A DNA stretch of 64,000 bases from an uncultured Veillonellaceae bacterium (GTDB lineage Bacteria > Bacillota > Negativicutes > Veillonellales > Dialisteraceae). This document shows, in pieces, positions 22,922 to 56,242 of this stretch. The stretch lies in contig CASEBK010000032.1 of the NCBI GenBank assembly GCA_949286115.1, forward strand, positions 1 to 64,000, given 5' to 3'. The notes beneath the pieces are model-generated. The model saw only the letters and a list, made by a program, of their open reading frames with translations. It searched no databases and had not been told where the DNA came from. Position numbers and translations under genes: made by a program. Numbering within the stretch: the stretch's first letter is position 1; each line of letters starts with the position of its first letter.

Positions 22922-23142
22922 TGCAAAAAAAATCCCGCCCCTCGTAAGGGGCGAGAAAGATTCCCGTGGTACCACCCTCATGACCATGGCGGCCACTCGG
23001 CACAGATAACGGTGTCCCGGCGGAGCTTTTCTTCTCCGCAGCTCCAGAGTGATCCGTCTGCTCCCGTGCCGCCCCTTTCCACCTGCGGGGCTCTCTGGAT
23101 GCACGCTGCGGCGCAGACCGTCTCCATCAATGCTTCATATGA
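22922..23142 (-). promoter_or_regulatory. T-box leader of ileS (Ile specifier)
   Basis: Minus strand contains the T-box core TGGTACCACG (22965-22974) in the usual AGGGTGGTACC context. It is followed by terminator stem CGCCCCT-CGTA-AGGGGCG (22936-22953) and a T8 run. Stem I has AGAGAGCC and a GTCTGC/GCAGAC helix; the specifier reads ATC (Ile) in GGATCACTCTGGAG. Uncharged tRNA-Ile should favour read-through into ileS. Confidence 0.92.
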
Positions 23143-50291: not shown

Positions 50292-52025
50292 TTATAAGGG
50301 GTCCTTCTCCTGAGAGAGGCCTGATCGTTGGGAGAGGTCCTGCTCGATGGATTCAGCCAGCTTCTCTGCGATGGCGCTTTCTTCGAAGAGGATGTGGTCC
50401 ACGCCGGCGTCTTTCAGGAGGGGCGCATCCTGGAGGAAGCGGGTGCGGGCGTAGACGATGAGGCCGGGATGGATGCGTTTGGCGGCGATGGCCGCTTCGG
50501 CGGCGGCCGCGGCGGAGGGGATGGTGATGATGAAGAGGGAGGCCTGTTCGATGCCGGCGGCTTTCAGCACGTCTTCTTTCGTGCTGTCTCCGTACACGGC
50601 GGCGATGCCTTCCTGTTCGAGGCGGGAGACGGTGTCGAGGTTCATGTCGAGCACCACCGGTGTGAGGCCCCGGGCGGTGATGACGTCGGCCGCGGCGCGT
50701 CCGGTGGGGCCGTAGCCCGCGATGAGGGCGAGGTCCCGGCCTTCGGAGAGCTCATGGGCGAGCGCCAGGGACCTTTCCTGCAGGTGGGCGTTCTTCCGCT
50801 CGCCCCGGTCGTTCAGGAGGTGCCACAGGGTGGGCTCGCGCCTGGCCGCGGCAAGCGCTGCGGGGACGGCTTTCATGAGGAAGGGGTTCACCGCGATGGA
50901 CGCGAGGGCGCACACGATGAGCACGCTGTAGATGTCTTCGGAGATGAGGCCGAGGGAGAGGCCGGTCTGGGCAAGGATGAACGAAAATTCGCCCACCTGC
51001 GCCAGGCCCGCCGCCACGGTGAAGGAGGTCTCCGCGGTGCCGCCGAGGACGGTGACGATGCCCACGGTGGCAAGGGGCTTCACGAGGAGCACGATCAGGA
51101 GGGAGAGCACCACGATGCCGGGCTGCTCGATGAGGAAGGCCGGCCGGAAGAGCATGCCCACGGAGAGGAAGAAGAGCACGGAGAAGGCGTCCCGGAGGGG
51201 GATGAGCTCGGCCCCGGCCTGATGGCTCGCGCGGCTCTTGCCCACCACCATGCCGCCCAGGAAGGCGCCGAGCGCAAAGGAGGCGTCGAAGATGTACGCC
51301 GCGGCAAGCGCCGTGAGGAAGGCCACGGAGAGGACGGTGAGGGTGAAGAGCTCGTGGGAGCGGGTGCGCACGATGTGTTTCAGCGCCCAGGGCATGACGC
51401 GGCTCCCGGCGGTCATGACGAGCACCCAGAGCACCACCAGTTTCAGCCCGGCCACGCACACCGCCCACAGGAGGGACGCGGCGGAGAAGGTCTCTCCCGC
51501 GGCGAGCGCCGGCCCGATGGCAGGAAGGAGCACCAGCATGAGCACGGTGAAGATGTCTTCCACCACGAGCCACCCCACGGCGACGGTCCCCGCATGGGTC
51601 TCGAGCCGCCCGTTGTCGGTGAGCACCCGGAGGAGCACCACGGTGCTGGCCACGGAGAGGCCGAGGCCGAGGAAGAACCCTTCCGCGAGCGTGTAGCCCA
51701 GAGCGAGCGCCGCGGCGATGCCGAAGACGGTGGCCGCCGTGGCCTGCACCACCGCGCCGGGGATGGCGATGCCTTTCACTTCCATGAGGTCGTCCGTGTG
51801 GAAATGGAGGCCCACGCCGAACATGAGAAGGATGATCCCCGCTTCGGCGAGGTTGTTCGCCAGGTCCGCGTCCGCCACGAAGCCCGGCGTGAGGGGGCCG
51901 ATGAGGAAGCCCGCCGCGAGGTACCCCACGATGGGCGAGAGACGCGCCCGCTGGGCAAGGTAGCCGAAGGCGAGGGCCATGCCGAATCCCACGGCAAGGA
52001 TCTCGAGGAGATGGTAACTGTGCAT
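50292..52025 (-). CDS. CPA2-family cation:proton antiporter with TrkA-N domain (YbaL/KefB-like)
   Basis: 577 residues. Twelve to thirteen membrane segments over residues 1-385 (SPIVGYLAAGFLIGP, LLMFGVGLHFHTDDLM, GLSVASTVVLLRVL, ASFALGAFLGGMVVG). A Rossmann NAD-binding TrkA-N domain follows from about 420 (LIAGYGPTGRAAADVI, VYGDSTKEDVLKAAGIEQA). Predicted K+ or Na+ efflux gated by nucleotide. Single gene between the deleted IS and the TRAP operon terminator. Confidence 0.9.
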   Translation of the reverse strand: MHSYHLLEILAVGFGMALAFGYLAQRARLSPIVGYLAAGFLIGPLTPGFVADADLANNLAEAGIILLMFGVGLHFHTDDLMEVKGIAIPGAVVQATAATVFGIAAALALGYTLAEGFFLGLGLSVASTVVLLRVLTDNGRLETHAGTVAVGWLVVEDIFTVLMLVLLPAIGPALAAGETFSAASLLWAVCVAGLKLVVLWVLVMTAGSRVMPWALKHIVRTRSHELFTLTVLSVAFLTALAAAYIFDASFALGAFLGGMVVGKSRASHQAGAELIPLRDAFSVLFFLSVGMLFRPAFLIEQPGIVVLSLLIVLLVKPLATVGIVTVLGGTAETSFTVAAGLAQVGEFSFILAQTGLSLGLISEDIYSVLIVCALASIAVNPFLMKAVPAALAAARREPTLWHLLNDRGERKNAHLQERSLALAHELSEGRDLALIAGYGPTGRAAADVITARGLTPVVLDMNLDTVSRLEQEGIAAVYGDSTKEDVLKAAGIEQASLFIITIPSAAAAAEAAIAAKRIHPGLIVYARTRFLQDAPLLKDAGVDHILFEESAIAEKLAESIEQDLSQRSGLSQEKDPL

Positions 52026-55042: not shown

Positions 55043-55906
55043 TCATTTATACTTCTCATCCAGCTCATTATATTTGTCGAGCCCGATGAATTTGTTGAAC
55101 TCGCTGAAATGCATCATCTTGTCTTCGCAGTTTCTCGTGTTGCCGTCCACGCGGAGATGATGCATCACGTCCGCCAGCGCTTTCGAAATGGCGTACACCG
55201 CCGTGCACGGCCAGAAGACGATGGAGAAGCCCATCTCTTCGAGGTCCTTCGCCGTTAGATTCGGCGTGCGGCCCCCTTCGATCATGTTTGCCACGAGGAT
55301 CGTGTCGGGGAAGCTCTTTCCGATCTTCTCCAGTTCCTCCACGCTCTGCGGCGCTTCGATGAAGAGCGCGTCCGCGCCGCTGTCGAGGTAAAGCTTGCCC
55401 CGCTCGATCGCCGCGTCGATGCCGTACACCGCGCGGGCGTCCGTCCGGGCGATGAGGATCGTGGACTCGCGGAGCTTCGCATCCGCTGCCGCGCGGAGCT
55501 TCTTCGCGTGGAGCGCCGCGTCCACCACCTGCTTGCCCGCCATGTGGCCGCACCGCTTCGGCCAGACCTGATCCTCCAGGAGGACCGCCGCCGCGCCGGC
55601 CCATTCAAATTCGCGGAACGTGCGCTGCGCGCAGAGCGCATTGCCGTAGCCCGTATCGCCGTCGGCCACCACCGGCACGTCCACCGCCTGGGTGATCGCC
55701 CGGAGCGAGTCCCGCATCTCCGTCATCGTGAGATAGCCCACGTCCGGCTGCGCCAGACGGGACGCCGCCACCTGGTAGCCTCCCATGACGAGACCGTCGA
55801 ACCCCTGCGCCGCGGTGATCTTTGCCGTCAGGGCGTCATATACCCCCGGCAATACGAGGATCTCGTCCTTCGATAGTCGCTCTCTTAGCTTTTCCCCTGC
55901 ATCCAT
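55043..55906 (-). CDS. Isocitrate lyase / PEP mutase superfamily C-C lyase
   Basis: 287 residues, alpha/beta barrel. GVYDALTAKITAAQGFDGLVMGG, metal-binding DGDTGYGN (82-89), ED at 111-112 and KRCGH with Cys119. The K(K/R)CGH catalytic block marks true lyases (2-methylisocitrate, 2,3-dimethylmalate, petal-death-protein-like alkylmalate/oxaloacetate cleaving) rather than PEP mutases. IARTDAR follows. First gene after a T-box leader and upstream of dctPQM, so the enzyme probably acts on, or makes, the transported acid. The reaction cannot be fixed from sequence. Confidence 0.87.
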   Translation of the reverse strand: MDAGEKLRERLSKDEILVLPGVYDALTAKITAAQGFDGLVMGGYQVAASRLAQPDVGYLTMTEMRDSLRAITQAVDVPVVADGDTGYGNALCAQRTFREFEWAGAAAVLLEDQVWPKRCGHMAGKQVVDAALHAKKLRAAADAKLRESTILIARTDARAVYGIDAAIERGKLYLDSGADALFIEAPQSVEELEKIGKSFPDTILVANMIEGGRTPNLTAKDLEEMGFSIVFWPCTAVYAISKALADVMHHLRVDGNTRNCEDKMMHFSEFNKFIGLDKYNELDEKYK

Positions 55907-55977
55907 TTTTTCCTTCCTTTCCGGATCTATAGCACAGCATCGCCCATGCCGGTCCAGTCACAAATGACTAAAACAAA

Positions 55978-56207
55978 AACCCCTGCCGGATCTTCTCCGG
56001 CAGGGGCGTAGTCACGCGGTACCACCCTGCATTATACTCAAAGCCCGTAACGCTGGCCTGCGCTCTTCCTACTTCGTTCAGCAAGAGGACTCCCGGGCGA
56101 GAACACACAGTGCCGACTTTACTGCTTTTCACCGCCCAGCAGCTCTCTGAAACGCGTCCCTGTATGGCTCCCGTTCATCATCATGAGGATGTATCGATTT
56201 AAGATAT
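55978..56207 (-). promoter_or_regulatory. T-box leader of the lyase-TRAP operon, specifier probably CTC (Leu)
   Basis: Minus strand has T-box core TGGTACCGCG (56015-56024) in GCAGGGTGGTACC. The terminator CCCCTGCCGGA...TCCGGCAGGGG with T5 is at 55976-56006. Stem I has AGAGAGC and a GGGCGGTGAAAAGC apical loop. Aligning the distal part with the ileS leader here and with B. subtilis glyQS (specifier, five bases, then GGAG or TGAG) gives CTC in GTT-CTC-GCCCG-GGAG. CTC is the usual leucine specifier. T-box identity is firm; the amino acid call less so. Confidence 0.88.
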
Positions 56208-56213
56208 GAATCA

Positions 56214-56242
56214 AGTATAGCAACGCCGTACCGCACTGTCAA
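56214..56242 (-). promoter_or_regulatory. Promoter of the T-box lyase-TRAP operon
   Basis: Minus strand TTGACA (56237-56242), 17-base spacer, TATACT (56214-56219). Confidence 0.8.

Follow-up and report, generated by a model that had tools for sequence, protein, structure and literature searches.

A predicted leucine T-box operon of a petal-death-protein-like lyase and a TRAP transporter in Negativicutes suggests a branched-chain salvage route

A lyase gene and the three genes of a TRAP transporter lie behind a T-box leader in an uncultured Veillonellaceae bacterium, a gut-type anaerobe, on the minus strand of the window, as we call the whole stretch of 64,000 nucleotides that was analysed. 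The features are as follows.

56242-56214, minus strand: promoter TTGACA-17-TATACT, 11/12 matches to the consensus
56187-55999, minus strand: T-box leader (RF00230), 74.2 bits, E 2.3e-16, all 219 model positions
56101-56099, minus strand: specifier codon CTC (Leu), from the Rfam alignment and a specifier rule checked on control genes from this genome
56024-56015, minus strand: T-box core TGGTACCGCG (antiterminator), by motif match, the sole exact copy within the 64-kb window
56007-55979, minus strand: intrinsic terminator that competes with the antiterminator, a stem of 12 pairs followed by a T-rich stretch
55906-55043, minus strand: lyase of the PEP-mutase/isocitrate-lyase superfamily, petal-death-protein-like, 287 residues, KRCGH loop (WPKRCGHM)
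55007-53967, minus strand: dctP, TRAP solute-binding lipoprotein, by profile matches
53947-53414, minus strand: dctQ, TRAP small permease, by Pfam
53413-52136, minus strand: dctM, TRAP large permease, by profile matches
22944-23139: T-box of ileS, specifier ATC

An earlier note, made from the letters alone, had described a complete T-box between a TTGACA/TATACT promoter and an isocitrate-lyase-superfamily gene carrying the KRCGH block, followed by dctPQM, and each of these parts was recovered. The TRAP transporter is complete, as Pfam DctP, DctQ and DctM each scored above the gathering score. A KefB/YbaL-type antiporter gene (50292-52025 of the window) follows on the same strand 3' of dctM, and no terminator was found between the two; in those relatives where the genes past dctM were read, the antiporter does not come next.

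The leader was confirmed as a T-box by a covariance match that takes in stem I, the core and the antiterminator, together with the promoter and the terminator. The gathering score of RF00230 is 93 bits, and the leader fell under it and was found in E-value mode; the Rfam scan of the window at the gathering score reported no T-box. As 14 of the 20 T-boxes in the same 1.86 Mb genome are missed at 93 bits, default RF00230 annotation under-reports T-boxes in this genome. The terminator region folded with a z of -5.0, and the minimum free energy fold of the leader alone (z 0.23) is uninformative, which is to be expected where folding depends on tRNA. Promoters resembling TTGACA-17-TATACT were also visible in leaders of related loci. 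Several leaders have one stem I followed by a pair of antiterminator core motifs, spaced about 60-115 bases from each other (L001, L002, L005, L006, L007, L010 and L013 in the window's genome; L036, L040 and L044 in Dialister); in these a single tRNA-sensing stem may serve two serial terminators.

The specifier was read by a scripted rule (the codon, one base, then four bases closing the helix), and the codon occupies the same Rfam alignment columns across all T-boxes of the window's genome. On control genes of this genome the rule returned TTC for pheS, TCC for serS, GGC for glyQ, ATC for ileS, TGG for trpD and CTC for leuC, and the valS T-box showed GUC in the Rfam alignments, so that the readings match the expected amino acid for each of these genes. 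For the lyase operon, the covariance alignment and the control-tested rule both gave CTC at 56101-56099. The earlier note had arrived at this codon by aligning the leader with the Ile T-box of ileS and had proposed a covariance model to fix it. A leucine-specific reading of the leader, which would tie the operon to leucine, is thereby well supported. Elsewhere in this genome, several genes of LivK/LivH-type ABC systems for branched-chain amino acids each stand behind a T-box with Ile, Val or Leu as its reading (L005, L006, L007, L010, L013), among which the T-box of L005 reads CTC upstream of a gene for a LivK-type protein. At L012 (1729-1934 and 1501-1715), the T-box of cysS is immediately preceded by a raiA RNA (190 bits).

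Related loci were collected by name and by a genome-wide search in 300 genomes belonging to the class. The nearest lyase clade, denoted as clade A, comprised 24 Negativicute lyases with a tree support of 99/97. A CTC T-box lies directly upstream of 21 of these lyases (most read by script, three by eye), with dctPQM behind, and the search for the same leader-lyase-TRAP order in other Negativicutes, which had been suggested beforehand, was thus positive. In genome G033 (L034/L171), the T-box(CTC), leuA, leuC, leuD, leuB, the lyase gene and dctPQM form one run of genes, so that gene order, and not the codon alone, connects the module with leucine. Considering the CTC specifier in the window, its recurrence among the relatives and this T-box-leuACDB-lyase-dctPQM operon, the link to leucine is real. 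No recognisable T-box core was seen in G026. In G245 the lyase stands alone and a separate TRAP transporter has a CTG (Leu) T-box, and G105 has a TRAP transporter with a Leu T-box and no lyase. The G245 locus (L023, 285-2877) holds a clade-A lyase gene without a T-box, and an IlvD-family dehydratase gene (43% identity to IlvD) takes the place of the TRAP genes.

The best NCBIfam match of the lyase was prpB (TIGR02317), which together with the KRCGH loop would suit an ordinary methylisocitrate lyase of propionate metabolism, or else an oxaloacetate hydrolase, standing behind a T-box by chance. However, the match reached 277 bits against a cut-off of 354.4. The closest solved protein was the petal death protein (PDB 1zlp, E 6.4e-73), which we take to be a C2-alkylmalate and oxaloacetate lyase of plants, and the lyase grouped on the 1zlp side of the superfamily tree (support 93/92), apart from methylisocitrate lyase. 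Where 1mum, 3eoo and 4iqd have the MQTR Arg (R270), the lyase and all lyase relatives aligned across the motif have Phe. Score, motif and clade together led us to reject methylisocitrate lyase. The petal death protein has a Ser, presumably the marker of oxaloacetate hydrolases, at a position (AHSLTAVY) where the lyase has Pro (FWPCTAVY) and the Dialister-like lyases have Ala; oxaloacetate hydrolase was rejected as an assignment on the absence of this Ser. Given also that Leu or Val T-boxes and leuCDB accompany the lyase, a chance association of an ordinary enzyme is very improbable. By clade and by the motifs FSEFN and WPKRCGHM, the lyase is assigned as petal-death-protein-like, with cleavage of alkylmalates as its putative activity. 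Enzymes of this superfamily cut R1-C(OH)(COO-)-CHR2-COO- reversibly into R1-CO-COO- and R2-CH2-COO-. With isopropyl as R1 and hydrogen as R2, the pair would be 2-isopropylmalate on one side and 2-ketoisovalerate plus acetate on the other.

The genome of the window has leuC-leuD-leuB under a CTC T-box. No homologue of LeuA was detected in this assembly (90.4% complete) at E 1e-5 with TIGR00973 or TIGR00970, and no IlvD was found in it either. With LeuA missing and LeuCDB retained, 2-isopropylmalate must be the source of leucine. A citramalate route to isoleucine was rejected on the absence of IlvD. Formation of 3-isopropylmalate from glyoxylate and isovalerate was judged less likely, as it needs LeuB only, yet LeuC and LeuD are kept. 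Among 12 genomes sampled from the window's family, the lyase, the DctP orthologue, LeuC and LeuB were jointly present in seven and jointly absent in five. All seven lyase-bearing genomes contain an aminotransferase-IV gene, and LeuA (by two models) and IlvD were found in none of them, two of which (G003 and G008) are 99% complete. Most genomes compared are draft or metagenome assemblies, and gene absences therefore rest on incomplete genomes; TIGR00170 gave only partial LeuC matches in the class, and LeuC of the window's genome was read directly. The window's lyase nests among those of the Acidaminococcaceae, adjoining that of G176, and the Dialister-like lyases form a second clade, which points to two probable entries of the module into the family. 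With two clades, the pattern of seven against five is not one inherited event, and the independent events behind it are only few. Outside the family, LeuA is present in Acidaminococcaceae and Sporomusa relatives, and IlvD too in most of the Acidaminococcaceae tested. G176, G052 and G149 (genus g44) have LeuA and LeuC and lack IlvD, i.e. they could finish leucine but not make 2-ketoisovalerate by the usual route.

The same distribution bears on the transporter. The nearest structures to DctP, with 4p47 as the best, do not indicate its ligand. Considering that T-box-controlled transporters usually carry the amino acid that is sensed (PMC2494555), the TRAP transporter could be an importer of leucine or branched-chain amino acids to which the lyase is only loosely related. 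However, it is missing from exactly those relatives without leuC and leuB, which should be neediest for leucine, and present in those with leuCDB; it is moreover co-transcribed with the lyase or matches it in T-box specificity. Because of this absence in particular, an ordinary leucine importer is improbable.

The module is split in all four Dialister-like genomes that have it. The lyase and the TRAP transporter lie at different loci, each with its own T-box, and both T-boxes read GTC (Val), whereas leuCDB of the same genomes has CTC. The GUC and CUC specifiers of these genomes fall in the same columns of the Rfam alignments. Dialister succinatiphilus (G008) is one of the lyase-bearing family genomes. 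Since two unlinked leaders share the same changed specificity, the lyase and the transporter can be viewed as a single module, and there is strong evidence that they serve one purpose and that this purpose is tied to a precursor common to valine and leucine. Likewise, a link of both to the branched-chain pathway is well supported, because they occur all-or-none with leuC and leuB in the family and both carry Val T-boxes in Dialister.

From these arrangements we infer a transported compound, a lyase reaction with its direction, and a response to starvation. Under leucine shortage, uncharged tRNA-Leu would pair with the CTC specifier and stabilise the antiterminator, and the lyase gene and dctPQM would then be transcribed. 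The TRAP transporter would take up a branched organic acid that belongs to the leucine pathway; 2-isopropylmalate is the likeliest candidate and 2-ketoisovalerate the alternative. The lyase would interconvert 2-isopropylmalate with 2-ketoisovalerate and acetate, independently of coenzyme A. The LeuCDB enzymes, whose genes have a CTC T-box of their own, would carry 2-isopropylmalate to 2-ketoisocaproate, from which an aminotransferase would make leucine, and 2-ketoisovalerate would go to valine. We give about an even chance to the operon being such a tRNA-sensing branched-chain supply system with these substrates. The earlier note had proposed that an imported branched 2-alkylmalate or 2-keto acid is converted to a leucine precursor under shortage. 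Of this proposal, leucine control (CTC and the leuACDB-lyase-dctPQM order) and the branched-chain link stood, and the conversion of an imported alkylmalate or keto acid would fit, with one correction: without LeuA, 2-ketoisovalerate released by the lyase could yield valine, not leucine by a known route, and the entry compound for leucine must be 2-isopropylmalate, whether imported or made by the lyase run backwards.

The lyase may also work in one direction only. If it only cleaved, the transporter would import 2-isopropylmalate released by neighbouring cells, LeuCDB would turn it into leucine, and the lyase would release acetate and 2-ketoisovalerate for valine. Such a scheme accounts for the Val T-boxes on the Dialister lyase and transporter beside the Leu T-box on leuCDB, for the loss of LeuA and IlvD together and for the Leu-T-box transporter without lyase in G105, and a dicarboxylate fits the DctP family; the Dialister T-boxes thus favour import and cleavage. 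However, Leu control extends to the lyase itself in the window and in genomes of the Phascolarctobacterium type, and where the lyase shares an operon with leuA (L034/L171) cleavage would be futile, which leaves this scheme possible but doubtful. If the lyase only condensed, imported 2-ketoisovalerate would be joined with acetate to 2-isopropylmalate, a substitute for LeuA that is independent of coenzyme A, and LeuCDB would finish leucine. In line with this, all seven lyase-bearing family genomes keep LeuCDB without LeuA and IlvD, the kept LeuCD requires 2-isopropylmalate as an intermediate, and the lyase, the transporter and leuCDB are all under Leu T-boxes in the window's genome; this control of the lyase, and the operon that it shares with leuA in G033, argue for condensation or for a lyase that works both ways. 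For a consumer of the valine precursor, the Val T-boxes that control lyase and transporter in the Dialister-like genomes would nevertheless be unexpected, and many lyase-bearing relatives still have LeuA, so that we regard condensation as the only direction as rather unlikely. Several facts also weigh against the preferred reading of an interconverting lyase. In LeuA-bearing relatives, cleavage by the lyase would run in a futile cycle against LeuA, and condensation would duplicate what LeuA already does; condensation leaves the Val T-box of Dialister unexplained, and cleavage the Leu T-box of the window; and G105 has its transporter without the lyase. At its boldest, the proposal is that a superfamily lyase reversibly joins 2-ketoisovalerate and acetate to 2-isopropylmalate, replacing LeuA without coenzyme A, and that with the TRAP transporter bacteria lacking IlvD and LeuA make both leucine and valine from one traded intermediate, the T-boxes choosing which amino acid calls. 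This we hold as tentative and on balance unlikely.

Each component is already known, T-box, TRAP transporter and lyase superfamily alike, and what is new is the content of T-box-controlled amino acid supply. The earlier note knew of no described system of such composition, and in agreement with it the open-access literature searched yielded no description of a T-box-lyase-TRAP arrangement, of an isopropylmalate lyase or of a TRAP importer under T-box control. Gut bacteria are usually classed as leucine or valine auxotrophs when leuA or ilvD is missing. If the module works as proposed, Dialister-like and related genomes would live on an exchanged pathway intermediate and would not be simple auxotrophs. 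The automated annotations 'methylisocitrate lyase' and 'C4-dicarboxylate TRAP' would then mask it, and the targets of T-box control would gain one transporter class and one lyase. T-box specifiers may further serve as a means to assign substrates to orphan TRAP transporters, and the switch from Leu to Val in two unlinked leaders of one lineage offers a natural test of regulon rewiring. Taken all together, the arrangement suggests a salvage route in which the lyase and the importer would feed the branched-chain pathway of bacteria without the usual entry enzymes.

Among known systems, the leucine T-box of the B. subtilis ilv-leu operon shares T-box antitermination and the specifier, CUC (Marta et al. 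1996, cited in PMC2494555). It governs a biosynthetic operon, whereas the genes under the T-box described here are those of a lyase and a TRAP transporter. The petal death protein has WPK(K/R)CGHM, FSEFN and a Tyr after the first Gly-Gly stretch in common with the lyase; it differs in having Ser where the lyase has Pro, and the lyase sits in a bacterial operon with a transporter. PrpB (1mum, 3eoo) resembles it in fold and in the KRCGH loop, but the lyase scores under the curated cut-off, has Phe for the MQTR Arg and lies in a separate clade of the tree. The 2,3-dimethylmalate lyase, which we take to act with the dimethylmaleate hydratase DmdAB in nicotinate fermentation, belongs to the same superfamily. 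Distant lyase relatives lie directly behind LeuC/LeuD-type isomerase genes in Abyssobacteria (L051, 2826-5867), a Firmicutes MAG (L061, 508-3185) and Poribacteria (L079, 3157-5855), a pairing of lyase and isomerase as with DmdAB. In the present system, by contrast, the isomerase is the leucine enzyme LeuCD, accompanied by LeuB, and control is by tRNA-Leu. Finally, if the proposed lyase reaction is right, the lyase and LeuA would make or break one and the same bond in a common product, but LeuA belongs to an unrelated enzyme family and uses acetyl-CoA.
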